Under the pieces are notes generated by a model that was not told the DNA's origin, did no database searches, and worked only from the letters and a program-made list of their open reading frames with translations. The position numbers and the translations under genes are program-made. From positions 1 through 26,833 of IMG/VR virus record IMGVR_UViG_3300025870_000061: 26,833 nt of DNA; one strand, written 5' to 3'. The stretch is from a virus. Shown here piece after piece: positions 6,657 to 24,364 of the stretch (its first letter is position 1; the number at the start of each line of letters is the position of its first letter).

Positions 6657-9600
6657 TGACTGGTTTTTTAACTGACAGTAATGGATTTAATGTTGGCGGA
6701 TTAGACCGCAATCTATTTAATACACTCCAAAGCTCAACTTCTTCATATCAAGGAGCTACAGCGCAGAATGTAGGTATTACAGATATTTTGTGCGAAGGCC
6801 CAATAGCAGGACTTGTTGGCGGCACTAGTGGTGTATATTTAAATGATAATCCTATTACTGATGAATCAACCTCTTCTTCTTTTACCCCTGGAGCTTTAAG
6901 TGCGGCTACTATTACGTTTGATGGCACCTCAGCAACAGGAACTTTGTCTGCGGGCTTTTTTGTTCCGGGTTTTATACAAAATACGAGTAATATTAGAACT
7001 CTAAGATTATTTCAGCTAGAAGAAGCAGTAACTACAACTGTGAGCACAAACAGTCTTGGTATAGTAGAAGTATCTTGTGTTGCAAACAGTGGAACTCCCT
7101 TTACGGAGGCAGACTGGGCAAGTGCTTATGATAATGGCAAAATGACAGAGCTAGTCAATCCGGGAGTAGTAGACAAGTTTGGATTATCGTATTTTGTTAA
7201 CTCAACTACAATGATGTTTCAGCCTCCCGGCTGGGGAAACGAAGCAGACTTTCCTGATGCGAATAGCTACCTACTGCGTAGCTGGACTAAACACAATATT
7301 GTGGGTACTACAACCGACACAACTATAACAGTGGATGCGGGAAGCCTTTCGGGGATTCCCCCAGCAGGTACTTATAAATTTATAGCTATTACTAATAAGC
7401 TTACTTATGATGTTAACTATGACGCTGCCCTTGCTTTAACGCAGTCTCAGAACACTCTTACAAAGTATGACAATTTACAATTTGATATAAAACTAGGGAG
7501 AAACCCCACTAGCGAAAGATCCTTTAATTCTTTTGGAGACGCAGATGGAGGCTCTTCTTCTATTATTGGAAGTGTGTCAGGAATTAACTTAACAGAATTA
7601 AAACAACTAACAACTGTTTCTGCGAATAGTTTAAATGTAACTCTTTTAGATAGCGATGCTACCTCTTACCCCGAAAACCAGCACACAGATAGAAATAATT
7701 CTCCTACTATTCTAGACTCTGCTGATTTTGGACTAGACTCTTCGTCTAAACTATTGGAAGCAGATGAGATTTATTATAATATTCAGTATCCTTCGCTTAA
7801 ATCTAATAACTTTGGTGAAAGTGGCAATAGTGAAGATGCTTACGCTTTTTACCTAATGGAAATTTCACTAAAAAGAAATGGAGTATTTGGAGACTATGAA
7901 CATATTTTTCCTAATATCAATCCAACCTATATTAAGCACAAAGGGTTTACAACTGCACCAGTAAACTTTGAGCACAGAATTAATCTTGATGTGTATAGAC
8001 CTTTTGATGATTTTAAAGTTAGAATTATACGAGTAACTCGTCATATAGGGCTCTCAGTAACTTCAACAGGCACCAATGATGGGCGCCCTGACAGAAAGAA
8101 ATGGCAGCTTGCAGCAACTGCAAATATTACACAGTTAGGTGCTATAATTAAAGATAGGTTTACTTTTCCATATACAGCGGCTACACAATTGCAATTTTCT
8201 AGTAGAGACTTTAAAGGTGTTCCTAAAAGAAGTTTTCATCTAAGAGGTAAATTAGTTTCTATTCCGGACACCTATACTCCTAGAGAGTACTCTGCTTCTG
8301 GAAAAGCAGAGTATGAGCAGTTTTGGGGAGGAGAATTTAAAAATATTAAGTACTATACAGATAACCCTGCTTGGATTTTTCTCGATCTATTGTTAAACAC
8401 GTCTTATGGGGCAGGAAAGTACTTATTTCTTTCTGATATAGACATTTACGCTTTATATAGAATCTCAAAGTATTGTGATGAGCTTGTAGAAGATGGTAAG
8501 ACGGTTAACGCTACAGACCTTAAACTTGGCGAGTACTACAAAATTAAAACAGTAGGTGATACTACTTTTACAAATCACGGCTCTTCTGCAAATACTGTTA
8601 ATACAGAATTTCGTGCAACTTCTGTAGGTACAGGAACGGGTACAGTCTGTGGGCTAGAGCCTAGGTATCGAGCAAATATTTATCTTACAAAAGCTACTGA
8701 CGTTTACAAAGTTTTAAAAGATATGGCAACTATCTTTACAGGTTTAATATACTGGATGGATAGTAAAATTACTGTAGTACAAGACGTTGCTCAAGACGCT
8801 GTTTATTCTTTTTCACAAGCAAACGTTATTGATGGCTCTTTTATATATGAAAGCACGGGGTCGCGCACTCGAGTAAATCAAGTCATTGTCACATGGAATG
8901 ACCCTGAGTTAAACTATGAACCAGTACCTTTAATTGTAGAAGATCCCGAAGCCATCTCAAGACAAAATAAACTAATTACTCAGGCTGCTGTAGCATTTGG
9001 CTGCACTTCTGAAGGTCAGGCTACACGTCTTGGAAAATGGAAGCTATGGACTGCTCAAAATCAAAATGAAGTTGTAAGTTTCAGTACTGCACTTGCCGCT
9101 GGCTTTTTGAAGCCTGGCGACATAATTAATATAACAGACAATAAGCGTACAGGTATTCAGTACAGCGGTAGAACTTCCGCAGCAAACAGCACAACTTTGA
9201 CGTTTGATAGGAGTGTTACTTTTAACTCAGGGACAACTTATGAGTTAAGCACTCTTGTAACTGCTCCCGCTGCATTTTACACTGGACAGTCCTCTATAAC
9301 TATTAATAGTAATACTTATAATCAAGGAGACAGAGTACCAGAAGCTTTTGTCTACAGTGGAGGGTCTTTTTCTTTAACAGCTTTGGACACAGAAGAAAAA
9401 ACGTCCAATGCTTTCTTAGACTCGGCAGGTGCTACAGAACTTGTAACAAGTTGGAAAGAATACACGTATGTGCAAGCAAATACAGTCACAAATCCCGGCG
9501 CAGCTGCAAATCAAGTAACTATTGCTTCTTCTGGAACTTTTGGCGTGACTCCCGCCGTAAATAGTGTATGGGCTTTGAGAGAGATTGATAGTGATGGGCT

Positions 9601-10684
9601 AGATATAAGCGGGTCTAAAAAACTATACAGAATTTTATCAGTAGCTCAGAGCGCCTCAAATATTTACAATATTACTGGAGTAGAGCACTCTAATGAAAAG
9701 TATGAAGAAGTTGAGAGAAGGTACGAAGTAGGAGTTACTCCCGTATCAACCTTCGATGAGCAAGAGCCCCAAGAAATTCCTTCTGTACAAAATTTAACTG
9801 TTTCAAAGACAGACCTAGATAATGGAAACAGGCAACTTACTGTGAGATGGGACGCCCCCACTGACTTTGCTAGAGTAGACCACTATGAAATTGCTCATAA
9901 TATTAGCGATGATCCTCGAGGAAACCCGGTGCTAGTAGGAGATCGCACAGCTGATTTTGTTGTATCTTCTACCGCCACTTATGAGTTTAGAGTTAGAACT
10001 GTGTCTTCTTCAGGAAATAAATCGCCTTATACTATAATAGTTATTTCTCTAGGAGAGGAGGATGATATTATTTTAAGTGCAGATAGAGTGCATGGAATTG
10101 TGAAAGGTATAATATCAGATAATACTACTTCTTTATCTTCTGATGGTAATAGCTACGGCTTTGAAAATGCGAATGCGGTAGTTTCTTCTAATGCGGCCCC
10201 TGCTGATCCGGTAACTATTACAACTCAGTCCATAAATGTATCAAACGCCCCTGCAGGTAGAGAGACTTGGATTTATTTTGACCATAGTGCGGCAAGTATT
10301 GGGCTTTATGAGTGGAATACAGATATACTGAATGGAAGGGGGTTTTGGAGAAATATTGGAACCGGCTCCGGAGGCCAAACAGAGTTTGTAGAAATTGGCG
10401 CTGTAGATAGTCAACCCCTTACACCCTCTATTATACAGGATCTAGACGGTCAATTTTCTACACACTTTGTACCCGGCGATATAATAGTATTTAAGGCAGA
10501 TCTACCTACTGTTGCGTCTCCTGCTGTATTCTCAGCAGTAGCTCTAAGTGCAATTGCGGCACAATCAATTTTAATAGACACTGTTTTTGAGTCTTCGCTT
10601 GTTGGATTAAAAATATGGAAACTCGCTTTTAGGCCAGATCCTGCAAAAGACGCTTTAGTAGTGCGTTTACAAGGAGACCAATAA
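6656..10684 (+). CDS. Tip attachment / host specificity protein J-like
   Basis: This 1342-aa protein is the lambda gpJ homologue, the central tip protein that carries the host-binding fibre. The N-terminal part has the family signature ITDILCEGPIAGLVGG at about 41-56. Family segments recur at about 527-545 (FHLRGKLVSIPDTYTPREY), 570-590 (NPAWIFLDLLLNTSYGAGKY) and 672-710 (YLTKATDVYKVLKDMATIF). Residues about 613-665 are an extra small beta module inserted between YCDELVEDG and LEPRYRANIY. A fibronectin type III-like domain is visible at about 1040-1135. The remaining roughly 200 residues hold fibre-like beta sequence. AGGAGG at 6644-6649, six bases before the ATG, is the best ribosome binding site in the operon. 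The C-terminal, usually receptor-binding, part cannot be matched to a receptor. The fibre gene that follows starts on the last base of the stop codon. Confidence 0.93.
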   Translation: MTGFLTDSNGFNVGGLDRNLFNTLQSSTSSYQGATAQNVGITDILCEGPIAGLVGGTSGVYLNDNPITDESTSSSFTPGALSAATITFDGTSATGTLSAGFFVPGFIQNTSNIRTLRLFQLEEAVTTTVSTNSLGIVEVSCVANSGTPFTEADWASAYDNGKMTELVNPGVVDKFGLSYFVNSTTMMFQPPGWGNEADFPDANSYLLRSWTKHNIVGTTTDTTITVDAGSLSGIPPAGTYKFIAITNKLTYDVNYDAALALTQSQNTLTKYDNLQFDIKLGRNPTSERSFNSFGDADGGSSSIIGSVSGINLTELKQLTTVSANSLNVTLLDSDATSYPENQHTDRNNSPTILDSADFGLDSSSKLLEADEIYYNIQYPSLKSNNFGESGNSEDAYAFYLMEISLKRNGVFGDYEHIFPNINPTYIKHKGFTTAPVNFEHRINLDVYRPFDDFKVRIIRVTRHIGLSVTSTGTNDGRPDRKKWQLAATANITQLGAIIKDRFTFPYTAATQLQFSSRDFKGVPKRSFHLRGKLVSIPDTYTPREYSASGKAEYEQFWGGEFKNIKYYTDNPAWIFLDLLLNTSYGAGKYLFLSDIDIYALYRISKYCDELVEDGKTVNATDLKLGEYYKIKTVGDTTFTNHGSSANTVNTEFRATSVGTGTGTVCGLEPRYRANIYLTKATDVYKVLKDMATIFTGLIYWMDSKITVVQDVAQDAVYSFSQANVIDGSFIYESTGSRTRVNQVIVTWNDPELNYEPVPLIVEDPEAISRQNKLITQAAVAFGCTSEGQATRLGKWKLWTAQNQNEVVSFSTALAAGFLKPGDIINITDNKRTGIQYSGRTSAANSTTLTFDRSVTFNSGTTYELSTLVTAPAAFYTGQSSITINSNTYNQGDRVPEAFVYSGGSFSLTALDTEEKTSNAFLDSAGATELVTSWKEYTYVQANTVTNPGAAANQVTIASSGTFGVTPAVNSVWALREIDSDGLDISGSKKLYRILSVAQSASNIYNITGVEHSNEKYEEVERRYEVGVTPVSTFDEQEPQEIPSVQNLTVSKTDLDNGNRQLTVRWDAPTDFARVDHYEIAHNISDDPRGNPVLVGDRTADFVVSSTATYEFRVRTVSSSGNKSPYTIIVISLGEEDDIILSADRVHGIVKGIISDNTTSLSSDGNSYGFENANAVVSSNAAPADPVTITTQSINVSNAPAGRETWIYFDHSAASIGLYEWNTDILNGRGFWRNIGTGSGGQTEFVEIGAVDSQPLTPSIIQDLDGQFSTHFVPGDIIVFKADLPTVASPAVFSAVALSAIAAQSILIDTVFESSLVGLKIWKLAFRPDPAKDALVVRLQGDQ

Positions 10685-13600
10685 TGGCTATAGTAGTAGG
10701 GCCGCCCTTAGTTACTCTTGACCTTACAATAGGTCAAGTGGAGAACTTAAATCCACAAGGCCAGGCCCAGAGTGGGATTAATACAGGCGTAACTTTAAAC
10801 ACTGCAGATACGGGCATCACTTTAAGCTCTGGTGGAGTAATTAAAGGAGGTCAAACTGCATTTAATACAGGTAATGGGTTCTTTTTAGGGTACACAGGTG
10901 CACAGTATAAAGTTAGCATTGGCGACCCAAGCGGGGATAACCTAACTTGGGACGGGGCAGATTTAACTATTACTGCAGATGCCGGAACGATTTCAGGCGA
11001 CCTTACTGTTAATGGAAACTTTACCGTAAATGGTACCACTACTACTTTAAATACAGCTACATTAGATGTAGAAGATAAAAATATTACTCTAAACTACGGT
11101 TCAGGAGATACTTCTTCTACTGCTAATGGGGCAGGAATTACTATACAAGACGCAGTAAGTAACACTACTGATGCGTCCATACTTTGGAATGGGGCAACAG
11201 ATGCATTTGACTTTAGTAACTCTGTTAATGTAACTGGTAATATTGTTGTATCAGGTACTGTGGATGGCAGAGACTTGGCTACAGACGGTACTAAGCTAGA
11301 TAATGTTGAAGCCAACGCAGACGTAACCGACGCAACCAATGTTACAGCCGCTGGTGCCTTGATGGACTCAGAGGTTACTAACCTTGCACAGGTTAAGGCT
11401 TTTGACTCTTCTGACTATGCTACTGCCGCACAAGGTACTACTGCGGACTCTGCTTTGCAAAACGTAGTAGAAGACACTACACCACAGCTTGGTGGTGATC
11501 TTGCGTCTAACGGTAATGACATTTTGTTTGCAGACACTGACAAGGCTATCTTCGGTGCTGGCTCTGACCTACAGCTATATCACTCAGGTAGCCACAGTTA
11601 CATTATTGATAACGGAACTGGCGACTTAAAAATTTATGGCGCAAATATAGAAATAGGCAATACTTCTGGTGTTAAAAACCTGTTTGCAACAAGCGGCGGA
11701 GCAACAACTCTTTATTATAATAATGCCCCCAAACTAGCCACAGGGAACACAGGCATCGACGTTACTGGCACAGCCACGATGGATGGTTTGACTGTTGATG
11801 GAACAATCGCTTCCCCTTCTATAATAAAAATCAGTAATTCTGGAGGAACATGGACTTCAGGTGATGAAATAGGGCGTATTCAATTCTATTCCGCAGACGG
11901 TAGTGGTATTGGTGCACATGAAGCGGCGTCTATACGAGCGGTAACTAATCAAGGCGGCGTTCAAACAGACGGTACATTAGAGTTCTGGCGCAGTCCCTAT
12001 AACTCATCAGTAGTTAAGGCTTTAGAAATAGACGGGCCAACAGGCGACATCAGCTTTTACGAAGACACTGGCACGACTGCGAAGTTCTTCTGGGATAGTT
12101 CTGCGGAGTCTTTGGGTATTGGTACTACTCCAGACGCTGCTACTGTGTTGCATGTACAGGCTACAGAGCCGCAAGTTCTTATTAGCGATGCTTCTCTACC
12201 GCTCCAGAGGTTTATGGCTTTTGATGTTGGTTTAGCCGCTGACGAAGACACACATTTCATTACTGTAGACCAAGCTGATGCTTTAGCCTTTGGTGAAAAA
12301 CTTAATGGTGATGACCGTGTTATTGAAAATGAGTGGATGCGGATAACCAATGCAGGCTCGGTTGGAATCGGCACGGACGCCCCACAAGCTCTGACACACA
12401 TATACACCGAATCTGCAATCAACACAGCAGACACACTGCTTAAGCTAACAAACGTGGGCAACACTGCGCGTTATGTAGGTTTCCAAGCTCAACGTGATAA
12501 CGCTTCTGGACAAGGGTTGAATGTCTTAATCACGAAAACAGACGCTTCTGTTGTTAATGCTTTAACAATAGACACTTCTGCCAATGTTGGTATTGGTACT
12601 AGCAGTCCAACAAATCTTTTAGACGTTTCAGGCGCACAAGGGTCAGGCGGTATTTCTGCAAGAGTTTTAAATACAAATGCGACAAGCGCAACAACGTATG
12701 CAGAATTAAAATTAGAAACAGGTTTAAGCACTGGCGCAATACGAGAATACAGTGGTTCAGGTAGTGCGGGTTATATGGCCTTTCATAACGAAGGCACAGA
12801 AGGCATGCGCATCGACTCATCAGGCAATTTGCTCGTAAACGGCACAAACCCTACTGCAAAACTGGTCGTTGACGGAGATGCCAACGCCTACACCGCTCGA
12901 TTTAACTCTAGTACTACAGGAGGTCAAGCGTTTGGTACTCGCATAAGAGCAGGAACCAGTTCCTCTGATTATGCTTTGCTTGTAGAAAATACTAGTGCGG
13001 CATCAATGCTTGCTGTTCGTGGTGATGGAAATGTTGGTATTGGCACTAGCACTCCACAGGCATCTATACACACTACAGGTGATGCCATAATTGGCACAGC
13101 CACCCACGGCACCTCTTATGAAGGTGTATTACAGATTGCTGATGGCGCTGTGAATGAAAGAACTGTTGTTCTTATTTACAACAACCACCCAGACCAGTTT
13201 ATGAAGTTAGGTCAGGATGTGAACACAGCATTTATTGGCAGAGATCAAGCAGACGAGTTTGCTGTTGGTGTATTTGATAACGCCGCAGATACAACACTGT
13301 CCAAGCAGTTTGTTATAGATGCTAGCGGCAATGTGCTAATTGGTAAGTCAAATGCGGCTATCGCTGGAGCAGGTACTGCAATTCTTTCCTCAGGAACACA
13401 CAACGTAACAGTTGACGGGGACACTACGCTTCAATTAAACCGTTTAAGTTCACCCGGTCCAATCGCTACATTTTTTGCGGACGGCGGCACAGTCGGTAGT
13501 ATTGGTACTTTAAATTCTGCTTTGACAATTGGAACCGGCGATACAGGCATTCAATTTAACGCAGATAACAACGCTGTAATACCGCACAACATCACCACTG

Positions 13601-14142
13601 GCGCAAACGTAGACGCTAGTATTGATATTGGCTATAGCAGTGGCGGAACCAATAGACGCTTCAAAGACCTTTACCTGTCAGGCGGTGTTGTCTTTGGTGC
13701 TACTGGCGGCAACGTCTCAAGCAAGACGCTGGATGACTATGAAGAAGGAACGTTTACAGGAGCAGTTGCTGATGCTTCAAGTGGAGGAAATGAAAGCTCT
13801 TCAGTTTTAAGAGGAACATACGTCAAAATTGGAGCAGTTGTGTATGTTCAGTTTAACGTATCAAATATAAGCACCACAGGAATGACTGCTGGTAATGATG
13901 TGTTTATTACTGGGCTACCGTTTGCTACAAAGTCTGTATCCGGCACCGCTAAATATACCGGAACAGCCAACTTGAGCGTAGTGACGTTTGAACAAACTCC
14001 CTTTATGCAAGTAAATGAAGGGGAGACATACGTAAAAATACTAGAAGTCAGAAGTGGGGCAGGTAACGATGCTGTTGTTGTTTCTCAGCTTTCTTCTGGT
14101 GCATCAGATATTCACGGAAACCTTGTTTACGAAACAGCCTAA
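10684..14142 (+). CDS. Tail fibre protein with GIGT repeats
   Basis: This 1152-aa protein is probably a trimeric beta-structured tail fibre. Residues about 60-97 hold GFFLGYTGAQYKVSIGDPSG, a module often found in gpJ C-termini and central fibres. A low-complexity beta region follows (SGDLTVNGNFTVNGTTTT, then VDGRDLATDGTKLDNVEANA). The middle has four clear GIGTxxP repeats near residues 477, 560, 633 and 782 plus weaker copies. LDDYEEGTFTGAV near 1018 marks the start of a C-terminal beta domain of about 130 residues that resembles the ends of marine phage fibres. It starts on the last base of the J stop with AAGGAG at 10671-10676. From about 11250 on it looks richer in G+C than the other genes (one 60-base line has 29 G+C), with more CGT/CGC arginine codons, so part may be acquired. 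Receptor unknown. Confidence 0.88.
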   Translation: MAIVVGPPLVTLDLTIGQVENLNPQGQAQSGINTGVTLNTADTGITLSSGGVIKGGQTAFNTGNGFFLGYTGAQYKVSIGDPSGDNLTWDGADLTITADAGTISGDLTVNGNFTVNGTTTTLNTATLDVEDKNITLNYGSGDTSSTANGAGITIQDAVSNTTDASILWNGATDAFDFSNSVNVTGNIVVSGTVDGRDLATDGTKLDNVEANADVTDATNVTAAGALMDSEVTNLAQVKAFDSSDYATAAQGTTADSALQNVVEDTTPQLGGDLASNGNDILFADTDKAIFGAGSDLQLYHSGSHSYIIDNGTGDLKIYGANIEIGNTSGVKNLFATSGGATTLYYNNAPKLATGNTGIDVTGTATMDGLTVDGTIASPSIIKISNSGGTWTSGDEIGRIQFYSADGSGIGAHEAASIRAVTNQGGVQTDGTLEFWRSPYNSSVVKALEIDGPTGDISFYEDTGTTAKFFWDSSAESLGIGTTPDAATVLHVQATEPQVLISDASLPLQRFMAFDVGLAADEDTHFITVDQADALAFGEKLNGDDRVIENEWMRITNAGSVGIGTDAPQALTHIYTESAINTADTLLKLTNVGNTARYVGFQAQRDNASGQGLNVLITKTDASVVNALTIDTSANVGIGTSSPTNLLDVSGAQGSGGISARVLNTNATSATTYAELKLETGLSTGAIREYSGSGSAGYMAFHNEGTEGMRIDSSGNLLVNGTNPTAKLVVDGDANAYTARFNSSTTGGQAFGTRIRAGTSSSDYALLVENTSAASMLAVRGDGNVGIGTSTPQASIHTTGDAIIGTATHGTSYEGVLQIADGAVNERTVVLIYNNHPDQFMKLGQDVNTAFIGRDQADEFAVGVFDNAADTTLSKQFVIDASGNVLIGKSNAAIAGAGTAILSSGTHNVTVDGDTTLQLNRLSSPGPIATFFADGGTVGSIGTLNSALTIGTGDTGIQFNADNNAVIPHNITTGANVDASIDIGYSSGGTNRRFKDLYLSGGVVFGATGGNVSSKTLDDYEEGTFTGAVADASSGGNESSSVLRGTYVKIGAVVYVQFNVSNISTTGMTAGNDVFITGLPFATKSVSGTAKYTGTANLSVVTFEQTPFMQVNEGETYVKILEVRSGAGNDAVVVSQLSSGASDIHGNLVYETA
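12112..13060 (+). repeat. GIGTxxP fibre repeats
   Basis: Four spaced copies of a short coding repeat, (S/N)(L/V)GIGTxxP, occur at about 12112-12133, 12358-12384, 12583-12610 and 13029-13056. The last two are nearly identical in DNA (AATGTTGGTATTGG shared). Looser relatives lie between and after them (NLLVNGTNP, NVLIGKSN). Such repeats are common in phage fibre shafts and probably mark successive turns of a trimeric beta structure. Confidence 0.75.
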
Positions 14143-14400: not shown

Positions 14401-14718
14401 ATGGTTACATGGACTATTGCAACACTTGAGCGTAACTTGGCAGATGGCGGTGTAACCGTTGCACACTGGCGATGTACTAAAGAAGAAACCGTAGGAACTG
14501 GTGACGACGCTGTGACCTACGCTGCATCATCTTACGGTACTGTGGCTTTTACACCAGACCCTACTGCATCTAACTATATTGCCTATGATAGCCTAACAGA
14601 AGCTAATGTCTTAGGTTGGGTATGGGAGTCTGTAGGTCAGGACAGTGTTGAAGCGGCACTGACTGCAAAAATTGAGGCGGATAAAAATCCAACTTCTGCT
14701 ACCGGAAAGCCTTGGTAA
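14401..14718 (+). CDS. Small conserved phage protein, 105 aa, function unknown
   Basis: This protein has the layout TWTIATLERNLADGG ... VAHWRCTKEE ... YGTVAFTPDP ... YDSLTEANVLGWVWE, ending in TSATGKPW. It matches a widespread family of small phage proteins found near fibre genes and of no established function. The N-terminal half looks beta-rich. The C-terminal third is helical and acidic (VEAALTAKIEADKNP). GGAG at 14390-14393, inside the end of the 70-aa gene, supports the start. It is the last gene before the promoter gap at 14719-14837, and I see no terminator after it, so readthrough into the downstream set is likely. Confidence 0.8.
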   Translation: MVTWTIATLERNLADGGVTVAHWRCTKEETVGTGDDAVTYAASSYGTVAFTPDPTASNYIAYDSLTEANVLGWVWESVGQDSVEAALTAKIEADKNPTSATGKPW

Positions 14719-14760
14719 GAATATACTAATACTATAAGTATAACCTGCAAAAAATAAATC
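14719..14760 (+). promoter_or_regulatory. AT-rich upstream region with inverted repeat and UP-like A-tract
   Basis: Upstream of the promoter, TATACT (14722-14727) and AGTATA (14737-14742) form an inverted repeat with a 9-base centre. An A-tract at 14749-14754 followed by TAAATC sits directly before the -35 box, where an UP element would bind the RNA polymerase alpha subunit. Either could be a regulator site or simply AT-rich sequence. Confidence 0.35.
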
Positions 14761-14789
14761 TTGACAAGGTAGGTGTACAATGCTATAAT
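14761..14789 (+). promoter_or_regulatory. Exact consensus sigma-70 promoter with extended -10
   Basis: TTGACA (14761-14766), a 17-base spacer and TATAAT (14784-14789) match the bacterial sigma-70 consensus at all twelve positions with the ideal spacing. TGC just before the -10 adds the extended -10 TGn element. The predicted transcription start is near A14796, giving a leader of about 42 bases before the ATG at 14838. It sits in the only sizeable gap of the window and points at the second adhesion gene set. Confidence 0.9.
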
Positions 14790-14796
14790 CATAGCA
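14781..14796 (+). promoter_or_regulatory. Candidate operator palindrome over -10 and start site
   Basis: TGCTATAATCATAGCA is a perfect inverted repeat of two 6-base arms (14781-14786 and 14791-14796) around AATC. It covers the extended -10 and reaches the predicted first transcribed base, where a bound repressor would block RNA polymerase. The left arm is constrained by the -10 box, but the right arm is not required by the promoter. No repressor gene is in the window. Confidence 0.45.
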
Positions 14797-14811
14797 ATAA
14801 ATAGTCAAAGC

Positions 14812-14824
14812 CTCCTTTTTGGAG
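14812..14824 (+). promoter_or_regulatory. Leader hairpin that could hide the Shine-Dalgarno sequence
   Basis: CTCC (14812-14815) and GGAG (14821-14824) form a short GC-rich stem with a U5 loop in the leader of the downstream mRNA. GGAG is the only Shine-Dalgarno-like sequence before the ATG at 14838, at a long 13-base spacing. Pairing would compete with ribosome binding. The upstream CCTCCTTT also mimics the 3' tail of 16S rRNA. The stem is only 4 bp, so any effect may be modest. Confidence 0.4.
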
Positions 14825-14837
14825 TATATTAATAAAT

Positions 14838-15173
14838 ATGGATATAATTCAAATAGTAAAAGGAGATACAGGTCCTTCTCTTCGAACCTCCCTCACTAGG
14901 CAGGATACGGGAGCCGCTTTTGATGTCGCAGGGCATCAAGTACAGTTGCATATTCGAAAAAAAGGTACTACAGTCGTAATCTCAAGCATTGCTGCCAGTA
15001 GTGGAGGCTCTTTGCCTGCAGGAGACTTATCGTTCCCTCTTGAGGCTTTTCTAACAAGCAGTGATTGCGAAGAAGGATTTTATGAAGCAGAAGTAGAGCT
15101 TACTCTGCCTACTAATAAAATAATGAGCACATTTGAGATTATTAATCTGAAGGTACGAAATGACTTTACATGA
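14838..15173 (+). CDS. BppU N-domain-like small virion protein
   Basis: This 111-aa protein begins MDIIQIVKGDTGPSLRTSLT and continues as a beta sandwich-like sequence: RQDTGAAFDVAGHQVQLHIR, then DCEEGFYEAEVELTLP and FEIINLKVRNDF. This is the pattern of the N-terminal domain of phage baseplate upper proteins (BppU) and of free-standing small proteins of the same fold found next to marine phage fibres. It may act as an adaptor joining fibres to the tail tip. That role is inference. No alternative in-frame start exists between the GGAG at 14821 and the ATG. It is the first gene after the consensus promoter, and its TGA overlaps the ATG of the 1010-aa gene (ATGA), so the two are probably coupled. 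Confidence 0.72.
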   Translation: MDIIQIVKGDTGPSLRTSLTRQDTGAAFDVAGHQVQLHIRKKGTTVVISSIAASSGGSLPAGDLSFPLEAFLTSSDCEEGFYEAEVELTLPTNKIMSTFEIINLKVRNDFT

Positions 15174-18100
15174 AAAAAGGTGTATTATACATATCACGCC
15201 CGTCTTTAACGTCTCCACGTCTACAGGATGCGGTAGATAATGCTCCAGATCTAACAGGAGTAGGCTTAAACGCACCTTTATTCTCTGGGCTTAGCACAAA
15301 TGCTCCAACTCTATCATCTAGTTTTGGAACATCTCCGAGCTTGCTCAAAGCAGTTCTATCTTACATTCTTAATTATAACTTTGATATATCAGAGTTAGTT
15401 GGTTTACTGGATACTTTGGATTCTATAAGAATTCCAAAAATGAAAAAAGAAGACGTAGTTGACGCGTTTGAAGAATTTAAAATATCAAGAGCTGTAGAAC
15501 TACCTGATGATATAGGCTTTTGGGACGATGAAGATATAAAGTTTAAAAAGTCGTCAGGAATTCCTACTGAGTTTGCTTTTACAGAAGATAGGCTTTTAGT
15601 ATATAAAACCGCAGCAAAAGACCCGCTACTAGATTTATTTACTGCTAGCGACTCTGCTAGTTTTGAGACAGGTGCAGACCTTATAGAAGGTATTAGTGCT
15701 TTTCTAGAAGTTGACTTACTTAAAACAAGTGCAATGGAAGACTCTAGCTTTGCCTTTATAAATTCTCCCTATATCTTTTCAGGAGCAGTCGATACATTAG
15801 AACTTCAAAAAGTAAAAACACAAAGTAGCACAACTAATCAAATTAACCCTTTTAAAGAAAGTTTTGTAGGAATTCTGAATACATTTAATGACGCAACAGG
15901 AGACGGTATGCTAGTAACTCCTGCAATCTTGCCGAAGTTTACAGAGCAAATAGCCTCTTTAGCTTCTATAGCACTAGCGTCAAAAACTCCAAAGGATAGC
16001 ATTTTAGATATTTTTAACCCCAATCAAGAAGTTCGCAAAAAGTTTTCAACAGACATTAAGAAGTTTTCAACAGAAAGCGGATTAGCAGAAGAATTTAAAG
16101 TTGGAACGACTGACCTTCTAACAAACTTTCCGAAGTTTATTAGACAAGAAAATCTTTTTACAACTGAAATTCCGTATGTTATATCTGGAGAGCAAAAGTC
16201 GTTAGACCTTCAAAAAGCAGCTACAAATAGTGAAGTACCTGTCTTTCTGACCAACAAAAAACCTTTAGACATTGTAGAAGTTTTAGAGGAAGCAAGAAAG
16301 TTTAGAAAGCCTGGCATAGTCGAAAATATAGACATTAATCAATTTGTAAACACAAGCAAGCCCCGAAGTTTAGATACTCAGAATGTAAAAGCGATTAATA
16401 AAGTAGAGCGAAGAAAGATAATATTAGAGTTTATTATTGACGAAACTTTCTTTTCCATATTTTCACAATTACCGGGCCCAATAGCAGGAAAACCTCTAGG
16501 AAGCGGGCCTACTACATATTTTGTAGACCTTGGGGATAAATTTGACAGACCTATTGTGGGAACTTCTTTAGACGAAGAGGGCAATCTTTTAAACGGCACT
16601 GGGTGGCCCGCTAATATCCAAGCACAACTACAAAATGAAAGATATATAATAGTTGACCATATTTATGCAAATTTTGGAAGATTCAGATCGGGAACTGATT
16701 CAGCGGTGCTTCCTGACCTTCGTGAGAAATATTCTCATCAAGCTGTAAAACGAACTGGCTATGGTGAGGGAGAGATAGATAGGTTTACTGACTCTGCTAT
16801 GGTATCCACTGACTCCGCTAAAATATACTCAGAGGGCGGTTTAGCTGTAGGGCTGCGTATGGTAAATGGATTTGGATACCGAGGGTACTACGGACCTGCA
16901 CCTTTAAGATATAAATACGGAGTGCGCCCAGGCAATTTTTCTCAAAATCCTCAGCCAGAGTGGCACACTGAGCAAGGCTTGTACTACAGCGATCAATATA
17001 TTGAAACTGTAACACACCAAGACAGCGGTCGTCGTATAAATTTATTTTTTAGAGAAATGACCGCAGACGATATAGCTATTAGTAATACACATGGAGGAAC
17101 TTTACAACTCACATCAGGGCAGACATTTATTGACAAAATGCTCGCAGACTCTTATTGGAGCAAATACTTTAAACACGTAGACACACTAGTTAAACTGGGT
17201 CCAGGAAGTCGCCAAGAAGAAAACATTAATTCGGCAGAAACTTTAAAATTTGCTGGGTCAAACAGAATTATTCAAGATAAAGTATCAGCAACATTTTTAC
17301 ATAGATACGAGTCAGAAGCACTAAGTTTAGAAGATCCTATTTATGATGTTATATTGCAGTACTCTCCTGGAGCTGATAGAGATGGAGCTTTTGTGGATGC
17401 TTTTAGAAATTGGCCCGCCTATGCTGGGACGCAGCCTCTTGACTTTGAGCAAAAAATGTTAATCAAATATAGTAAACAATTTGATATAGACAAGATGCAC
17501 ACAAGTAGTCTAGCTCCCCTAGTTCTTGGAGGAAATATAGAGTCTGTGCTAGAGAAATTAACAAGTACAGCGGTACGAGAGCCTCATCATATAGTTAAAA
17601 AACCAGTATATTTTAGGGATGCAAACGGGGATTCTTTACTACCAATAGACTATGATCTTATATCTTCTACTGCCCCGCAAGAGCCTGCTATAGGTTTTAT
17701 ATGGTACGACACAGGCACAGGAAAGGTATATATTAGAAGAGCTTCAGACCAAGGTTTTGAGTTCTGGGAGCATGTAGGCCCCTTCGAAGAAGCAGTCTCT
17801 CTCCTTGAAGAGCGTGATATACTTTACTTTAAGCAGTACGACCAGGACGTAGCGGCGACTAAGTCTTTAAAGCCTAGTGTTTTTAGCGGAAGCACTCTTG
17901 CTAAGTTAGAAAGAATATTTGCAATCGAAGATATTGGTATAGTTCAGAAACCTTCCCCAGAAGAAGTACTTAATTTACTAGAAGAAGGTTATCTTAAAAA
18001 CATACAAGTAGGAACAACGCCTCTAGGGGCTCCAGTTTTTGAACAAGTTTTTATTAGACAGCCTAGAATTAAAACAAATAAAGAATTTTTGAACGAAGTT

Positions 18101-18202
18101 GCTGTTGCCGACTCTGGAACTGCGTTCGTACCCATATACTGCCTCCCTAGTTACTTTACGGAGGTATACGTCGGCGAAGATGGCACTCATGCCAATTTTT
18201 AA
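15170..18202 (+). CDS. Large unrecognised virion-type protein, 1010 aa
   Basis: I do not recognise this protein as a whole. It is acidic and D/S/F-rich, without a signal peptide or membrane segment. The N-terminal 400 residues are built of degenerate units. The clearest pair is SPYIFSG...LELQKVKTQSS near 198-222 and IPYVISG...LDLQKAATNSE near 334-358, with a weaker SVFSGSTLAKLE near 905. The middle (about 430-700) is rich in aromatic residues (FGYRGYYGPAPLRYKYG). Residues about 836-867 hold the fibre knob motif PQEPAIGFIWYDTGTGKVY ... FWEHVG. The end, YFTEVYVGEDGTHANF, resembles the DYFxxDYVGxxxxF ends of some marine phage structural proteins. It is AT-rich with AGA arginine codons like the tail genes. 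Translation is probably coupled to the BppU-like gene. A structural adhesin or fibre scaffold is the likely role, inferred from context. Confidence 0.75.
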   Translation: MKKGVLYISRPSLTSPRLQDAVDNAPDLTGVGLNAPLFSGLSTNAPTLSSSFGTSPSLLKAVLSYILNYNFDISELVGLLDTLDSIRIPKMKKEDVVDAFEEFKISRAVELPDDIGFWDDEDIKFKKSSGIPTEFAFTEDRLLVYKTAAKDPLLDLFTASDSASFETGADLIEGISAFLEVDLLKTSAMEDSSFAFINSPYIFSGAVDTLELQKVKTQSSTTNQINPFKESFVGILNTFNDATGDGMLVTPAILPKFTEQIASLASIALASKTPKDSILDIFNPNQEVRKKFSTDIKKFSTESGLAEEFKVGTTDLLTNFPKFIRQENLFTTEIPYVISGEQKSLDLQKAATNSEVPVFLTNKKPLDIVEVLEEARKFRKPGIVENIDINQFVNTSKPRSLDTQNVKAINKVERRKIILEFIIDETFFSIFSQLPGPIAGKPLGSGPTTYFVDLGDKFDRPIVGTSLDEEGNLLNGTGWPANIQAQLQNERYIIVDHIYANFGRFRSGTDSAVLPDLREKYSHQAVKRTGYGEGEIDRFTDSAMVSTDSAKIYSEGGLAVGLRMVNGFGYRGYYGPAPLRYKYGVRPGNFSQNPQPEWHTEQGLYYSDQYIETVTHQDSGRRINLFFREMTADDIAISNTHGGTLQLTSGQTFIDKMLADSYWSKYFKHVDTLVKLGPGSRQEENINSAETLKFAGSNRIIQDKVSATFLHRYESEALSLEDPIYDVILQYSPGADRDGAFVDAFRNWPAYAGTQPLDFEQKMLIKYSKQFDIDKMHTSSLAPLVLGGNIESVLEKLTSTAVREPHHIVKKPVYFRDANGDSLLPIDYDLISSTAPQEPAIGFIWYDTGTGKVYIRRASDQGFEFWEHVGPFEEAVSLLEERDILYFKQYDQDVAATKSLKPSVFSGSTLAKLERIFAIEDIGIVQKPSPEEVLNLLEEGYLKNIQVGTTPLGAPVFEQVFIRQPRIKTNKEFLNEVAVADSGTAFVPIYCLPSYFTEVYVGEDGTHANF
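16040..16074 (+). repeat. Short tandem repeat inside the 1010-aa gene
   Basis: The 13-base string AGTTTTCAACAGA occurs at 16041-16053 and again at 16062-16074, a 21-base period, encoding KFSTDIKKFSTES. It looks like a recent slip duplication within an otherwise diverged repeat region. Confidence 0.6.
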
Positions 18203-18213
18203 GGAGAAACCCT

Positions 18214-19656
18214 ATGTTAAAAGATAATGCCAGTATAAGAGGTATTGTCAATCTCGTACTTCGAGATCAATATGGTAGAGTAAAGCAGCACAAGACTATT
18301 CGTAATGCTGTAACTGAGGACGGGATTGCACATATCATTGGACGCATGATTGATACCAACCAAGATAGAAAGGGTAGTGGCACCGGAGCACATGAAATGC
18401 CTCGTATGATGAGCCACATGGCTATTGGTACAGGCGTGCCAAGCCCCGCAAGCGCTGCTCAATCTTTTGTTGAGAGCGCTAATACTACTAATCGTTTTTT
18501 ACAGACAGAAGTAGGAACTCGTGTACAGCTAATGAAAGATACCTCGTTAGCTGCTGACTACGTTCAGTATTCCATTACTCTTGCTGGAGGTAGTTTAACG
18601 GCAACCGGAGGAGCAACTTTTAATAATATTGTGGTTGGTGAGACTTTTATTACTATGCCAACAGGAAGTGCTACTTCTGGAACTTTACGATCCGGGATGA
18701 CTATTGAACTTGCAAATATTATTCCTGCAAATACAACAATTGGTACGATTACAAATGTATCTTCTGGAACTCTTTCTGGAACAACTAAAATTGACCTACT
18801 TGTTGGAGGAAATCCTGCAGTGCTTCTGGGAGGGTCTGCTGGATCAGACGCGATACCTTCGGGAGCTAATATTTTAGTAAAGTATACAGACGTACTAACG
18901 TCTCTTGGAGGCGGCACAAACCCTCACCCGTTTAAAGCAGCGGCAGACGCGGCCAATACTTTTACCGACTATAAGACAAAGATTCGAGGAAAAATTGGTG
19001 GCTATTACGACACAACCAATACTCCTGCAGACATTGCTGCTAATAGTAAACTAGCTCCTTTCTTTGGGGAATCTACAGATAAGCCAAGTGCTGATTTTAC
19101 TCAATTTGGTACGGACTTAGATGGAATTTTTCAAGGAACTCGTGTAGGGGGCAGTATTGTTGCAGATACTGGTACCGCCACTGAAGGGTATCACCCCGAT
19201 GAGCATGATTTTAACAATTCACCGTTATTAACTGATGTATCCGCTGGAGGTGCTGTTGGTAAAAGAGGGGCAAAGAAGACTGGAAACAGAATTATCTTTA
19301 TTGCGACCTTTAAGGAAGAAAACCCAAATGTCGCTACAACGTTAGTACGTGAAGCAGGTGTATTTAACTGTAGAACCACTCACCCATCTTTCGGAGGAGC
19401 CTTTACAGATCGTGACGGTAGTACTGTAGTAGCTATTGATGGCTCTGTCGCGGGGTATCAAGCACTGAACTTAGAAGGTCAGGCTATTGATGCAGTTGGT
19501 GGGGGTACTATTAAATCTTTCTCAAAAGGAAGCCCTAGATCCGGCGCAATAGAGCAAACAATGCTTTGTCGAACAACGTTTGATGTAGTAACAAAAGCTC
19601 AACTTGACACACTACAGATAACTTGGTCTGTTCAACTCTCTGACCAAACGCCTTAA
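18214..19656 (+). CDS. Virion structural protein of a fibre-associated family, 480 aa
   Basis: The N-terminus (ASIRGIVNLVLRDQYGRV ... KTIRNAVTEDGIAHI, then MSHMAIGTG at about 65-73) and the C-terminus (NRIIFIATFKEENPN, VREAGVFN, then TFDVVTKAQLDTLQITWSVQ) match a common type of phage protein encoded among tail fibre genes. In that type a beta-rich N-terminal part with a MSYMALGTG-like motif is paired with an ATF..G....I.EAG end. Function is not established, but a virion or fibre-tip role is likely. Residues about 115-340 form a long Thr/Gly/Ser-rich stretch that looks like an insertion of fibre-type sequence, so this member seems long. AAGGAG at 18201-18206, overlapping the previous stop, is seven bases before the ATG and fixes the start. 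The next gene begins 16 bases after the stop. Confidence 0.75.
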   Translation: MLKDNASIRGIVNLVLRDQYGRVKQHKTIRNAVTEDGIAHIIGRMIDTNQDRKGSGTGAHEMPRMMSHMAIGTGVPSPASAAQSFVESANTTNRFLQTEVGTRVQLMKDTSLAADYVQYSITLAGGSLTATGGATFNNIVVGETFITMPTGSATSGTLRSGMTIELANIIPANTTIGTITNVSSGTLSGTTKIDLLVGGNPAVLLGGSAGSDAIPSGANILVKYTDVLTSLGGGTNPHPFKAAADAANTFTDYKTKIRGKIGGYYDTTNTPADIAANSKLAPFFGESTDKPSADFTQFGTDLDGIFQGTRVGGSIVADTGTATEGYHPDEHDFNNSPLLTDVSAGGAVGKRGAKKTGNRIIFIATFKEENPNVATTLVREAGVFNCRTTHPSFGGAFTDRDGSTVVAIDGSVAGYQALNLEGQAIDAVGGGTIKSFSKGSPRSGAIEQTMLCRTTFDVVTKAQLDTLQITWSVQLSDQTP

Positions 19657-19672
19657 AATATAGAGGTTTACT

Positions 19673-22600
19673 ATGACTGCTAGCTCAATTACAATTGTTA
19701 CAAAGAATACCTCCCAAAGCTACACGGGAGGTACTTCTGCGGCTGCAAAAGGAACAGTGCTTTCAGTCTTAGAAGTGGACTCTAATTTTATAAATCTAAA
19801 AGAAGGCATAATAAACGTAGAAACAGATTTAACAACTTATGTAAATTCTACGTTTATTACTGCACTTAATGCAAACCTTATCGGCACTCCCACAGCTCCC
19901 ACACCAGGAGCGGGTGCCGGTAATTTTCAAATTCAAACTGTAGGAGGTGTAAGCGCGCTTGTTACTCCTATATCTACTCTAGTAAATAGTGCTCAAACAG
20001 GTAATTTAGCTCTACAATCTCTTATAAACTTTAAAGCTCCCTTAGCAAGTCCGGCATTTACCGGGTTCCCTCAGCTTTCTGGGGCTACTTATAATTTTAC
20101 TGGCTGGGACGCTGCTACCTCTTATTTAGCTACTGTAGAGTACGTTCAAGATAAATTAATAAACCTAACAGGGACAGTAAAGCCCACTACTGCAGGGGGC
20201 GTGAGTATAGGTACCTCAACAGAGCACGTAAACGAGCTTCATGTAAATACTGTACTTCCTGCTGGTGCAAATGCTACTATTGGAACACCTACTAACAGAT
20301 TTACATTCGGTTATTTTGACACCGGCGACTTTGGTCCTAATACGATTCTTGTTGGATCTGCAGAAATCTCTGCAAATGGAACTACTCTTGTTGTTCCTGT
20401 AAATACTGCGATTGGTAATCAAGAAAATGTAATTCCTCCAAACTTAGCATCTACTACTGTAGATAAACGATTCAGTGAACTTTCTATAGTTGATAACTTA
20501 GATCAAACCTTTACAGCTTCAGGGGCTATTACAGCCAGAGACCCTGTAGCAATTAATGCTAATGGAACTGTATCTACCATTTCTGCAAGTGTCTCTAATC
20601 TAGAGTTTATAGGTATAGCACTTGCTAGTGCTGCAGATTCTGCCTCTGTTACAGTTCGAGTACATGGTAAAGTAACTGGGTTTAGTGGCCTTACAGACAA
20701 TACTCTTATTTTTGCAGAAACAAACGGAACTTTAACACAAACTAAAACTACCTCTGCGTTAAAAGTAGGAGTTGCTACAAGTTCGACAGAGGCATTTTTC
20801 TTTACGACATCTAATTTAGACACATATCTTTTAAATATAAAAAAGGCAGAACTAAATGACTTCTCTATCACAGCTAATGCAAGTGCTTCCGGGTCCGGCG
20901 GACTTTCTTATAATAATGCTACAGGAGAATTTACACTTACTCCTGCAGACACTTCTACTTTTGCTACTACTTCGTATGTAAATACACAAGTTGCAAGTCT
21001 CGTAGACTCAGCTCCTGGAAGTTTAGATACCTTAAATGAGCTTGCCGCAGCATTGAATGATGATGCAAGTTTTTCTACTACAGTAACTGATAGTATAGCT
21101 TTAAAAGCCCCTCTTGCAAGTCCGGCGCTTACAGGTACTCCGACAGCTCCAACAGCGGCTACCAGTACCAATACAACACAACTAGCGACGACTGCATTTG
21201 TACAAGCAGAAATATCTGGGCTCGGCAACGCTAATTTAAATAGTTTTAGTGTTACCTCGAACTCTGCTTCTGGGGGTGGATCTTTAGCATACAATAATGC
21301 TAATGGAGTATTTACTTATACTCCTCCAGCTCTTTTTGACGGAGCGTTTGGCTCTTTAACAAGCAAGCCAACTACTATAGCAGGCTACGGCATTTCTGAC
21401 GCTGTGCCCTTCGCTTCTCCTACTTTTACAGGTACTCCCGCAGCTCCCACAGCTTCAAGTGGAACAAATACTACTCAGATTGCTACAACAGAATTTGTTC
21501 AAGCTGCTGTAACTGGTGGAAGTGGTATAGCTTTAACAGATCTAAGCACTTCTACACTTGCGGCTTCATCAGGAGGTGCTTTATCATATAACAATGCTAA
21601 TGGCGTATTTACTTATACTCCTCCAGATCTTAGCTCTTTTACTACGTTCGATGGCGCGTTTAGCTCTCTTACAGGTAAGCCTACTACTATAAGTGGTTAT
21701 GGCATTACTGATGCTTTTGATGGTGTATTTAATTCTTTAACGAGTAAACCAACAACTGTAGCAGGCTATGGTATTACTGATGCTCTTTCCGCTGCATCTC
21801 CTGCTCTTACAGGTACTCCTACCGCGCCCACAGCAGCTAGTAGTACAAATACTACTCAGCTTGCGACTACAGAGTTCGTACAGACAGCCGTATCAGGTTT
21901 TAGCAGTACGGGAGGGGACTCACAAAGAGACTATACTGCCGATACTTCTATTACTGCGGGGGACCCTGTAATATTAAATAGCAGTGGTAATGTGGAAACT
22001 GTTTCTGTACAGGCTGCCGGCTATGCTTCTTCTAGTACTATAACAGATTCAGCTAGTAATGATCTACCTTATCGTAAGCACACAGTAGATTATAATGACA
22101 ACGATGGGGTGTATCTTGAGTTCTACCAACCTTGGGGCACTAACTGGATTGGTAGAGTGCTCACTCCAAACCTTAGTGCTCTTTCTTATACGGTAGGGTC
22201 AGCCCAAACTGTTATAAACGCAGATATAACAACAACTGCGGGGCACTATCATTTATATACCCATATCCCCGGTACATCTAAAGGGGTATTATCGTACTAT
22301 ACAGGCTCCGTATATAAAGCAAGAATTATAACTTACTCGTCTGGCACGCTCTCTGCGCAGGCAGCAATTACTGTATCTGAAACAATTACAGACGCTGTTG
22401 TTACTCCTGCAGGAGTGCCCCTACTTCTTGTGGAAGAGACAGACGGTACTGCAAGCGTGCTTCCCCTTTCGGTTAGTGGTAATACGCTTACTGCAGGCAC
22501 TAAGTCAAATATAACTGGTCTTACAAACGGGGCCACTGAAATATTTTGGCACAGTGGTCATAATAAAATTGTAGTAGCAGACTTAAATGGTACAAATCTT

Positions 22601-24364
22601 GATTACTCCGTAGGAACAATTTCGGGAACTACTGTTTCAATGGGAACAAAAGCCACAGTAGCCACTACAAACACGTACACTGAAGCGCACTACCATAAAG
22701 GAACCGGGAACTTTATATTATCAAGAGTAGGCCCCAATGATGCGCTCTTTAGAGTTGCGCCCTTTAATGGCACTACAATAACTGTAGCAGCCGCCGAGCT
22801 TAACCCTAGCTGGAGTATTGGGACAAGTAGCAATAGTTGGTATAGCTCCGGATTTCACTTTTCTACATCAAGCGATGGATTTATTCTTAGCGCTGCAGTA
22901 AAGCAAGGAAACTACAAAAGACTATATATAGGCGTTGGCGCAATTAGTGCAAACGGGACGTTTACTTCAACGTCTTGGACTTCAATTACTCAATACAGTC
23001 AGGCTCAAGGTGGAGGGCAAGCAACTCCTAGCCCAAAAAATAACCCTGATGGGTACTCTTTTGCAGGGTTTCATACTCACTATAACTATCAACAATTTCC
23101 TGACCTAGTAGGAAGAGTTCTAAGGCTTGATGCAGTATCAAACTATACTGATTATTTAGGGATTGCTCAAAATACTGTAGCACAGAGTGCGACTACTACA
23201 GTTATGCTTGCAGGTGCTGTTAGTGATCAGCACTCAGGCCTTACTCAAGATACTAAATACTATGTTCAAACAGATGGTACTTTAGCTACAACAATCTCAA
23301 GTGTTCTAGGCGGAGTGGCAGTAGCGTCAGATTCAATTCAAGTAGCAGATAGCTTAGGTGTTTTTGATAAAACTATTGCTTTTGATGCCTTAACTGGTAA
23401 ACCAACTACTCTTGCTGGATATGGAATTGGAGACCCTGTACTGACCAGTGGCGCAGATATAGATATCGGAAGTAATGACTTTATTACTACTGGTAAGTCT
23501 TACTATGCAAATATGTTTGCTACTACCGGCGATCTTCCAAGCGCTACTACATATCATGGTATGTTTGCACACGTTCATGGAACAGGTGGAGGTTACTTTG
23601 CTCACGCAGGAAACTGGGTAGAGCTTGCGAATAAATCTTATGTAGATACTGAAGTTGCAAATCTTGTAAATTCTGCGCCTGCGACTCTTGATACTCTGGA
23701 CGAGTTAGCGGCTGCATTAAATGACGATGCAAACTTTGCTGCTACTATTACAACAAGCCTGGGCTTAAAAGCTCCTCTTGCATCCCCAGCACTTACTGGA
23801 GTACCCACAGCACCTACAGCAGCTACTAGTACTAATACTACTCAAATAGCTACTACTGCATTTGTGACAGCCGCAGTTGCTGCTGGCGGGGGCGGGGGAG
23901 GCTCTTCTGTAACTACAGACGACACAGCTCCGTCTGCTCCAAGTGATGGAGATTTGTGGTACGATACTGCAAACGGAGGAATGTTCGTATACTACCAAGA
24001 TGCAGATTCTAGCCAGTGGGTAGAAGTAATAGGTTCTCAAGGTTCAGCAGGAGCCGCCGGAACGGACGGAGGTTTAGATGCTTGGACAGAAAAAACTTCA
24101 GCATACACAGCAGTAGCAGGAAATCGTCTAATCGTAGATACTTCTACCGCCGTTACAGTAACACTTCCTACTTCTGCTAGCATTGGAGACGAGGTGCGAA
24201 TTATTGACGGAACAGGAAATGCCGGAACAAATAATATTACTATAGCAAGAAATGGGCATAAGATACAGGGTGATGCATCCGATCTTACGATTTCTACAGA
24301 CAGAGCGGCCTTTGGACTAGTATACTATAATGTAGCTAATGGCTGGGTACTCACGGAGCGATAA
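19673..24364 (+). CDS. Giant repeat tail fibre with inserted propeller-like region
   Basis: This 1563-aa protein is a phage side-tail-fibre type. It holds four copies of the classic fibre repeat (ASPALTGTPTAPTAA ... TTQIATTAFV) near residues 479, 578, 705 and 1367, and four FxxLxxKPTTxAGYGIxD units. SYNNANGVFTYTPP occurs two to three times. Two LDTLNELAAALNDDA modules begin near 435 and 1323. A domain at about 279-383 (ITARDPVAINANG ... LEFIGIALAS ... VRVHGKVTGFSGLT) recurs at 753-1222, but that copy is split by about 390 residues. The insert has repeated strands (VGTISGTTVSMGTKATV) like a beta-propeller. A polyglycine linker sits near 1404-1410 and a knob motif (PSDGDLWYDT ... QWVEVIG) near 1420-1450. 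The C-terminal 90 residues (NRLIVDTSTAVTVTLPTSAS) resemble marine phage fibre ends. GAGGT at 19663-19667 supports the start. Receptor unknown. Confidence 0.88.
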   Translation: MTASSITIVTKNTSQSYTGGTSAAAKGTVLSVLEVDSNFINLKEGIINVETDLTTYVNSTFITALNANLIGTPTAPTPGAGAGNFQIQTVGGVSALVTPISTLVNSAQTGNLALQSLINFKAPLASPAFTGFPQLSGATYNFTGWDAATSYLATVEYVQDKLINLTGTVKPTTAGGVSIGTSTEHVNELHVNTVLPAGANATIGTPTNRFTFGYFDTGDFGPNTILVGSAEISANGTTLVVPVNTAIGNQENVIPPNLASTTVDKRFSELSIVDNLDQTFTASGAITARDPVAINANGTVSTISASVSNLEFIGIALASAADSASVTVRVHGKVTGFSGLTDNTLIFAETNGTLTQTKTTSALKVGVATSSTEAFFFTTSNLDTYLLNIKKAELNDFSITANASASGSGGLSYNNATGEFTLTPADTSTFATTSYVNTQVASLVDSAPGSLDTLNELAAALNDDASFSTTVTDSIALKAPLASPALTGTPTAPTAATSTNTTQLATTAFVQAEISGLGNANLNSFSVTSNSASGGGSLAYNNANGVFTYTPPALFDGAFGSLTSKPTTIAGYGISDAVPFASPTFTGTPAAPTASSGTNTTQIATTEFVQAAVTGGSGIALTDLSTSTLAASSGGALSYNNANGVFTYTPPDLSSFTTFDGAFSSLTGKPTTISGYGITDAFDGVFNSLTSKPTTVAGYGITDALSAASPALTGTPTAPTAASSTNTTQLATTEFVQTAVSGFSSTGGDSQRDYTADTSITAGDPVILNSSGNVETVSVQAAGYASSSTITDSASNDLPYRKHTVDYNDNDGVYLEFYQPWGTNWIGRVLTPNLSALSYTVGSAQTVINADITTTAGHYHLYTHIPGTSKGVLSYYTGSVYKARIITYSSGTLSAQAAITVSETITDAVVTPAGVPLLLVEETDGTASVLPLSVSGNTLTAGTKSNITGLTNGATEIFWHSGHNKIVVADLNGTNLDYSVGTISGTTVSMGTKATVATTNTYTEAHYHKGTGNFILSRVGPNDALFRVAPFNGTTITVAAAELNPSWSIGTSSNSWYSSGFHFSTSSDGFILSAAVKQGNYKRLYIGVGAISANGTFTSTSWTSITQYSQAQGGGQATPSPKNNPDGYSFAGFHTHYNYQQFPDLVGRVLRLDAVSNYTDYLGIAQNTVAQSATTTVMLAGAVSDQHSGLTQDTKYYVQTDGTLATTISSVLGGVAVASDSIQVADSLGVFDKTIAFDALTGKPTTLAGYGIGDPVLTSGADIDIGSNDFITTGKSYYANMFATTGDLPSATTYHGMFAHVHGTGGGYFAHAGNWVELANKSYVDTEVANLVNSAPATLDTLDELAAALNDDANFAATITTSLGLKAPLASPALTGVPTAPTAATSTNTTQIATTAFVTAAVAAGGGGGGSSVTTDDTAPSAPSDGDLWYDTANGGMFVYYQDADSSQWVEVIGSQGSAGAAGTDGGLDAWTEKTSAYTAVAGNRLIVDTSTAVTVTLPTSASIGDEVRIIDGTGNAGTNNITIARNGHKIQGDASDLTISTDRAAFGLVYYNVANGWVLTER
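20975..21220 (+). repeat. Fibre module copy 1 (LDTLNELAAALNDDA plus SPALTG repeat)
   Basis: About 80 codons, from SYVNTQVASLVDSAPGSLD through TTQLATTAFVQA. The block is repeated at 23639-23880 with mostly conservative changes (YVDTEVANLVNSAPATLD ... TTQIATTAFVTA). The two copies flank the propeller-like insert region, which suggests duplication or module exchange. Confidence 0.85.
21335..21403 (+). repeat. KPTT repeat, copy 1
   Basis: A 69-base coding unit, FDGAFGSLTSKPTTIAGYGI followed by SDA, is the first of four in this gene. It leads directly into the second SPxxTG fibre repeat (21404-21520). Confidence 0.8.
21404..21520 (+). repeat. SPALTG-type fibre repeat, copy 2
   Basis: Codes for FASPTFTGTPAAPTASSG ... 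TTQIATTEFVQAAVTGG, a diverged copy of the classic phage tail fibre repeat. Confidence 0.85.
21647..21784 (+). repeat. Tandem 69-bp KPTT repeats, copies 2 and 3
   Basis: Two adjacent 69-base units (21647-21715 and 21716-21784) encode FDGAFSSLTGKPTTISGYGI-TDA and FDGVFNSLTSKPTTVAGYGI-TDA with no gap. A shorter fourth unit (FDALTGKPTTLAGYGIGDP) lies at 23381-23437, beyond the propeller-like insert. Confidence 0.85.
21785..21900 (+). repeat. SPALTG-type fibre repeat, copy 3
   Basis: Codes for LSAASPALTGTPTAPTAA ... TTQLATTEFVQTAVSGF, directly after the tandem KPTT units. Confidence 0.85.
23639..23880 (+). repeat. Fibre module copy 2 (LDTLDELAAALNDDA plus SPALTG repeat)
   Basis: Second copy of the block at 20975-21220, followed at once by a run of glycine codons and the C-terminal knob. 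Confidence 0.85.

Follow-up and report, generated by a model that had tools for sequence, protein, structure and literature searches.

Why should an ideal host-type promoter stand between two sets of phage fibre genes? The question was raised by a 26,833-bp stretch of viral DNA (hereafter the window), in which an initial annotation had recognized, at positions 14761-14789, a TTGACA box separated by 17 bp from a TATAAT box with the TG of an extended -10. Late structural genes being usually read from one distant promoter, this site was considered odd, and it was proposed that it would let the downstream adhesion genes be expressed separately, perhaps early or from a prophage. Our main finding is that the site belongs to a strictly conserved family of promoters that heads an adhesion gene module in a clade of marine, T5-like phages, and that it resembles the other late-region promoters of that clade.

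The sequence itself leaves no doubt as to the elements: on the plus strand, the -35 box occupies positions 14761-14766, the TG 14781-14782 and the -10 box 14784-14789. Compared with the housekeeping sigma-70 consensus (TTGACA, 16 to 18 bp spacing, TATAAT), the site matches at 12 of 12 positions with a 17-bp spacer and TGn, and by analogy it would be read by the sigma-70 polymerase of the host. No other 12/12 match occurs in the window. Weaker sites number 43, against 41.6 expected from shuffles, so that the perfect site alone stands out. Such chance-level background would favour taking the site itself for a fortuitous consensus match in AT-rich DNA; however, only 0.007 perfect sites are expected in the window on both strands under a first-order Markov model (0.0004 with TGn), and the site is retained in 27 of 27 related contigs. 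Conservation thus refutes this explanation, whose probability we regard as practically nil. The promoter sits in a 119-bp gap between p105, ending at 14718, and p111, starting at 14838. This is the sole sizeable intergenic gap of the window, whose 14 main open reading frames (ORFs) leave only 325 of the 26,833 bases uncovered.

Relatives were gathered by protein similarity alone, with three queries: the p111 sequence, an alignment of p111, and one of a 480-aa module protein. The 480-aa query yielded 24 relatives and the p111 search 3 further contigs; together with the window, these 27 make 28 contigs, which represent 20 distinct sequences, as some are near-identical assemblies. Perfect TTGACA-N17-TATAAT with TGn was found in 24/24 of the loci with the 480-aa protein and in the three p111-search contigs, about 76 to 88 bp upstream of p111. 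Loss of the boxes in close relatives with the flanking genes retained had been named as a result that would speak against a promoter; none has lost them, and the outcome favours the promoter. The rest of the region is far less constrained: identity is 100% in the hexamers, 59% in the spacer outside the TG, and 47% both in the leader after its first ten bases and at the fourfold-degenerate sites of p111, the protein identity of which falls to 28%. A further fixed element abuts the -35 box, namely an UP-element-like A-tract, AAAAAATAAATC (14749-14760, plus strand), whose five A's, and A and C positions, are invariant in 20/20 distinct sequences. A similar A-tract precedes most promoters of the clade. 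Neither this tract nor the leader hairpin described below (14812-14824) figured in the initial annotation.

Comparison with the nearest relative, L002, indicates to which side the promoter belongs. The 88 nt of promoter and leader are 95% identical between the two, versus 41% for the fourfold sites of p111, and DNA similarity starts 11 bp ahead of the -35 box, the upstream gene being a different one. Since upstream genes differ, the promoter belongs to the downstream module and travels with it. That similarity begins precisely where upstream genes switch could also be read as the mark of a recombination boundary, or of some other DNA signal between modules, with no promoter at all. Against this, invariance is confined to the hexamers, the 17-bp spacing, the TG and the A-tract, while spacer and flanks vary, and a like architecture precedes many other genes; we therefore judge the boundary reading very improbable. 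Nine distant p111 homologues from other phages (32 to 39% identity) have no such promoter, so it is a property of the clade and not general to p111.

Upstream of the promoter lie the tape measure gene, lambda-like tail tip genes (minor tail, assembly and central fibre J) and a gene for a 1152-aa tail fibre (10684-14142, plus strand; PHROGs tail fibre), which constitutes the first fibre set and is outside the module. The gene immediately upstream, p105 (14401-14718, plus strand; DUF7936, Pfam PF25590), is not linked to the promoter: among 80 contigs with p105 relatives, none has a perfect promoter behind the gene, and three have an 11/12 site without TG. No p105 relative was found in the 24 module loci, and from this distribution p105 looks like an extra gene inserted ahead of the promoter in the window. 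Members of the family are scattered over many phages of marine origin, among them Roseobacter phages and cyanophages.

Downstream, transcription is predicted to start at about 14796, as placed only by a distance of about 7 nt from the -10 box, which gives p111 a 5' leader at 14796-14837 (plus strand). In the window this leader is 95% conserved with respect to L002 and L094. It contains a small hairpin, CTCC-TTTTT-GGAG (14812-14824, plus strand), kept in most relatives. In the L095 group the stem takes the compensatory form CTTCTT/AAGAAG, and L117 and L185 have no clear equivalent; folding stability of the leader is not above that of shuffles. A role of the hairpin in sequestering the Shine-Dalgarno sequence was considered and set aside as unproven, the GGAG being 13 nt from the ATG and the L095-group stem being devoid of GGAG. 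Similarly, a perfect 6+6 bp palindrome, TGCTATAATCATAGCA, covers the -10 box (14781-14796); it was rejected as an operator or repressor site, being shared by the window and its nearest relative alone. Neither Rfam RNAs nor tRNAs were found in the window.

The first gene of the module, p111 (111 aa; 14838-15173, plus strand), is linked to the promoter in 28 contigs. Its predicted structure is a beta-sandwich of fair confidence (pLDDT 84.8). By E-value, the best solved match is a 139-residue baseplate chain of the T5-like phage DT57C (TM 0.52), and p111 also matches a chain of entry 4v96, a 'viral genome injection device' (TM 0.72). A collar protein assists in attaching the lateral fibres of DT57C (PMC10713586). 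On the basis of these models p111 is probably an adaptor that anchors fibres, which does not imply that the matched DT57C chain is the collar protein. Four more plus-strand genes follow within the window. They encode a 1010-aa protein (15170-18202), 38% identical to a 1060-aa protein of L002, and a 480-aa protein (18214-19656), both of no known family according to family searches; a 1563-aa tail fibre protein (19673-24364; PHROGs tail fibre families); and a 795-aa protein with LamG lectin-like domains (24364-26751; Pfam PF13385, PHROGs). No relative of either the 1010-aa or the 480-aa protein occurs in named phages, so that no cultured host can be assigned. The module was not found in bacterial genomes.

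The longer relatives indicate what kind of phage is involved. The terminase of G001 shares about 50% identity with its counterparts in T5-like phages. G018 (94.6 kb) encodes a two-piece NAD ligase, an SbcC-like subunit, a DnaB-like helicase and NrdA; its DNA polymerase shares about 44% identity with the enzymes of 105- to 122-kb Vibrio, Aeromonas and Klebsiella phages. G011 (101.3 kb), whose ends carry direct repeats of 505 bp, is probably complete. By gene content, the longest relatives (95 to 101 kb) are T5-like phages, and the clade is marine and uncultured. Searches of five relatives, with positive controls that worked, revealed neither an integrase nor sigma-70 region 2 or 4; the search for a single-subunit RNA polymerase, which had no working control, carries little weight. 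Just before its terminal repeat, G011 carries a permuted tmRNA of alphaproteobacterial type (L157:240-666, contig positions 100241-100666; 92.7 bits with RF01849, 117.3 bits with RF04321, and the tag ANDDIYALAA according to ARAGORN), which hints at an alphaproteobacterial host.

Is the fibre promoter a singular element in these genomes? Exact TTGACA-N17-TATAAT sites number nine each in G018 and G011, against zero for the reversed pattern. With one mismatch and a spacing of 16 to 18, there are 23 and 27 sites, respectively, versus 2 to 4 in random sequence of the same dinucleotide composition. In the longest relatives the sites stand at gene starts. Three late-region promoters have fixed places: PL1 before the HNH and portal genes, PL2 in the interval separating the major tail gene from the tape measure gene, and PL3, which is the fibre promoter. 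In the five longest contigs, PL3 leads 23 to 30 kb of codirectional adhesion genes (8 to 17 genes). PL1 hugs the HNH gene (L093:17279-17695 in G001; 27947-28366 in G018), the ATG being 8 nt past the -10 box, and its mRNA would be almost leaderless. G018 (13487-13830) and G011 (93189-93632) also have a region devoid of large ORFs in which promoters that are perfect or nearly so, with GC-rich starts of the kind TATAAT-CGGCGC, lie clustered, perhaps giving rise to small RNAs.

Early- and late-region promoters of the clade differ at a few positions, numbered here such that the first base of TTGACA is -35. With classes set by position and gene content, not by timing of expression, A-25 is present in 26/27 distinct late-region promoters versus 3/30 early-region ones, and T-22 in 26/27 versus 8/30. 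Conversely, early-region promoters have G-13 (26/30), A-6 (25/30), T-5 (21/30) and T-3 (22/30), and late-region promoters are mostly without these marks (A-6 in 1/27). In the fibre promoters A-25, G-23 and T-22 are invariant. The window site has the spacer motif TAGGT from -26 to -22 (14770-14774, plus strand), identified by alignment of fibre promoters and comparison of the classes and comprising both A-25 and T-22. It also has C-13, and CATAG follows the -10 box. The first three of these bases, CAT (14790-14792, plus strand), form a discriminator found in 19/20 distinct sequences, at the place where early promoters of the clade have ATNT. Judged by these sequence marks, the window promoter is of the late type.

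This result bears on the suggested early or prophage use, according to which a moron-like promoter would have the adhesion genes made outside the late phase, in early infection or lysogeny. The strong host-type boxes, for which no phage factor is needed, would suit such a role, and autonomous moron genes have been described in some marine siphophages (PMC2784084). However, the discriminator and spacer are those of late promoters, G-13 is absent, the five relatives searched with positive controls yielded no integrase, and the site stands at the head of an entire late operon, not of a single gene or a handful of genes. The early marks being absent, we consider this use improbable, and this part of the initial proposal is not upheld.

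A different question is whether the marks themselves set the timing. The near-identical consensus sigma-70 promoters of the clade might carry a two-part code, in which a phage protein or a modified polymerase reads Y-A-N-S-T (-26 to -22) and early promoters are silenced through G-13 and ATNT; the boxes alone would then not be the switch from early to late. A-25 and T-22 each recur in 26/27 late promoters at three unrelated places, versus 3/30 and 8/30, respectively, in early ones. In G022-G024, four late-position sites not used previously (three PL1, one PL2) fit the pair, and on the opposite strand G-13 is present in 10/11 sites; the marker positions had nonetheless been picked after inspection, sequences of the same locus are related, and the three new PL1 sites are identical to one another. 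Two exceptions are known: the PL2 counterpart of G011 breaks the A-25/T-22 rule, and the site at 8290 in G018, in the early region and on the late strand, bears the late motif. No candidate factor has been identified. The T5 switch is unexplained, and there gpT5.026 weakens the contact between polymerase and discriminator (PMC7472727). We therefore put the two-part code forward tentatively, as a possibility with somewhat less than even chances.

As for the promoter itself, comparative analysis makes it very probable that it is a working, very strong, late-class promoter of sigma-70 type, belonging to a marine siphophage that resembles T5. Host RNA polymerase, unmodified or modified, would bind the A-tract, the -35 box, the extended -10 and the -10 box late in infection and start near 14796, so that the adhesion operon, with its genes for the p111 adaptor, the fibres and the LamG protein, would be read as a separate late transcript, over 12 kb within the window and 23 to 30 kb in longer relatives. 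Separate expression of the downstream genes, as originally proposed, is strongly supported by sequence conservation in 27 relatives. It would add to the flow from the two upstream late promoters, before the HNH/portal genes and before the tape measure gene. No intrinsic terminator was found in the window between the upstream genes and the promoter or in the leader, and the search ahead of the promoter in relatives gave one weak candidate in one relative. Read-through may therefore supply much of the adhesion mRNA, and the probable effect of the promoter is to boost, not to insulate, the distal genes, which are some 25 kb away from PL1.

Several consequences follow. Early and late promoters of the clade can be separated by a few fixed bases, including spacer bases where sigma-70 needs no particular sequence, and the open question of the T5 early/late switch becomes reducible to a small set of point mutations; if true, the two-part code would be the answer to this unsolved T5-type switch. 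Moreover, the attachment genes appear to form a module with its own promoter, which could be exchanged between phages with expression retained.

Set beside known systems, the promoter is less odd than it had seemed. In T5, pre-early, early and late genes are all read by the host sigma-70 polymerase, with strong sigma-70 promoters ahead of both early and late genes, and the mechanism of the early/late switch is described as unknown (PMC7472727). Its late genes are read from several promoters, including P-G25, a strong sigma-70 promoter of late use (PMC7472727). P-G25 (AY543070, 92013-92087, minus strand) immediately follows the tail-tip gene pb2, in the gap that separates it from the fibre genes pb3, pb4 and ltf, and is the positional counterpart of the window site, with which it shares an A-rich stretch upstream of the -35 box. 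Unlike the window site, P-G25 has TTGATA, ATTG after the -10 box, and neither TGn nor the A-25/T-22 motif; an annotated terminator lies ahead of it. Within the late region of its T5-like phage, the window site stands between tail and fibre genes and points in the same direction as the virion genes; it lacks the ATATT that T5 early promoters have in their discriminator (PMC7472727).

At the genome level, the clade has Demerecviridae-like features (T5-like terminase, two-piece NAD ligase, SbcC-like and DnaB-like proteins, DNA polymerase) and, in common with T5-like phages, several sigma-70 promoters spread over both the early and the late region, and an AT-rich early discriminator. It differs from T5 in being marine, in its size of about 95 to 101 kb, in its end repeats (505 bp in G011 versus 10.2 kb in T5), in the lambda-like tail tip genes of the window, in a large LamG/fibre module for which named phages gave no counterpart, and in the number of perfect sites, one in 121.75 kb for T5 against nine in each of the longest relatives. 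Host-type promoters have likewise been predicted within the genome of the marine siphophage P-SS2 (PMC2784084), but there the promoters were called computationally, some of them at individual inserted genes, whereas the window site is invariant in its clade and heads an operon. It also departs from the moron arrangement, in which an autonomous promoter, one or a few genes and a terminator are carried by a temperate phage. A promoter of this kind is therefore already known. Three features of this uncultured marine clade are new: a perfect consensus that does not vary, a motif in the spacer, and early and late promoters that fall into separate types.
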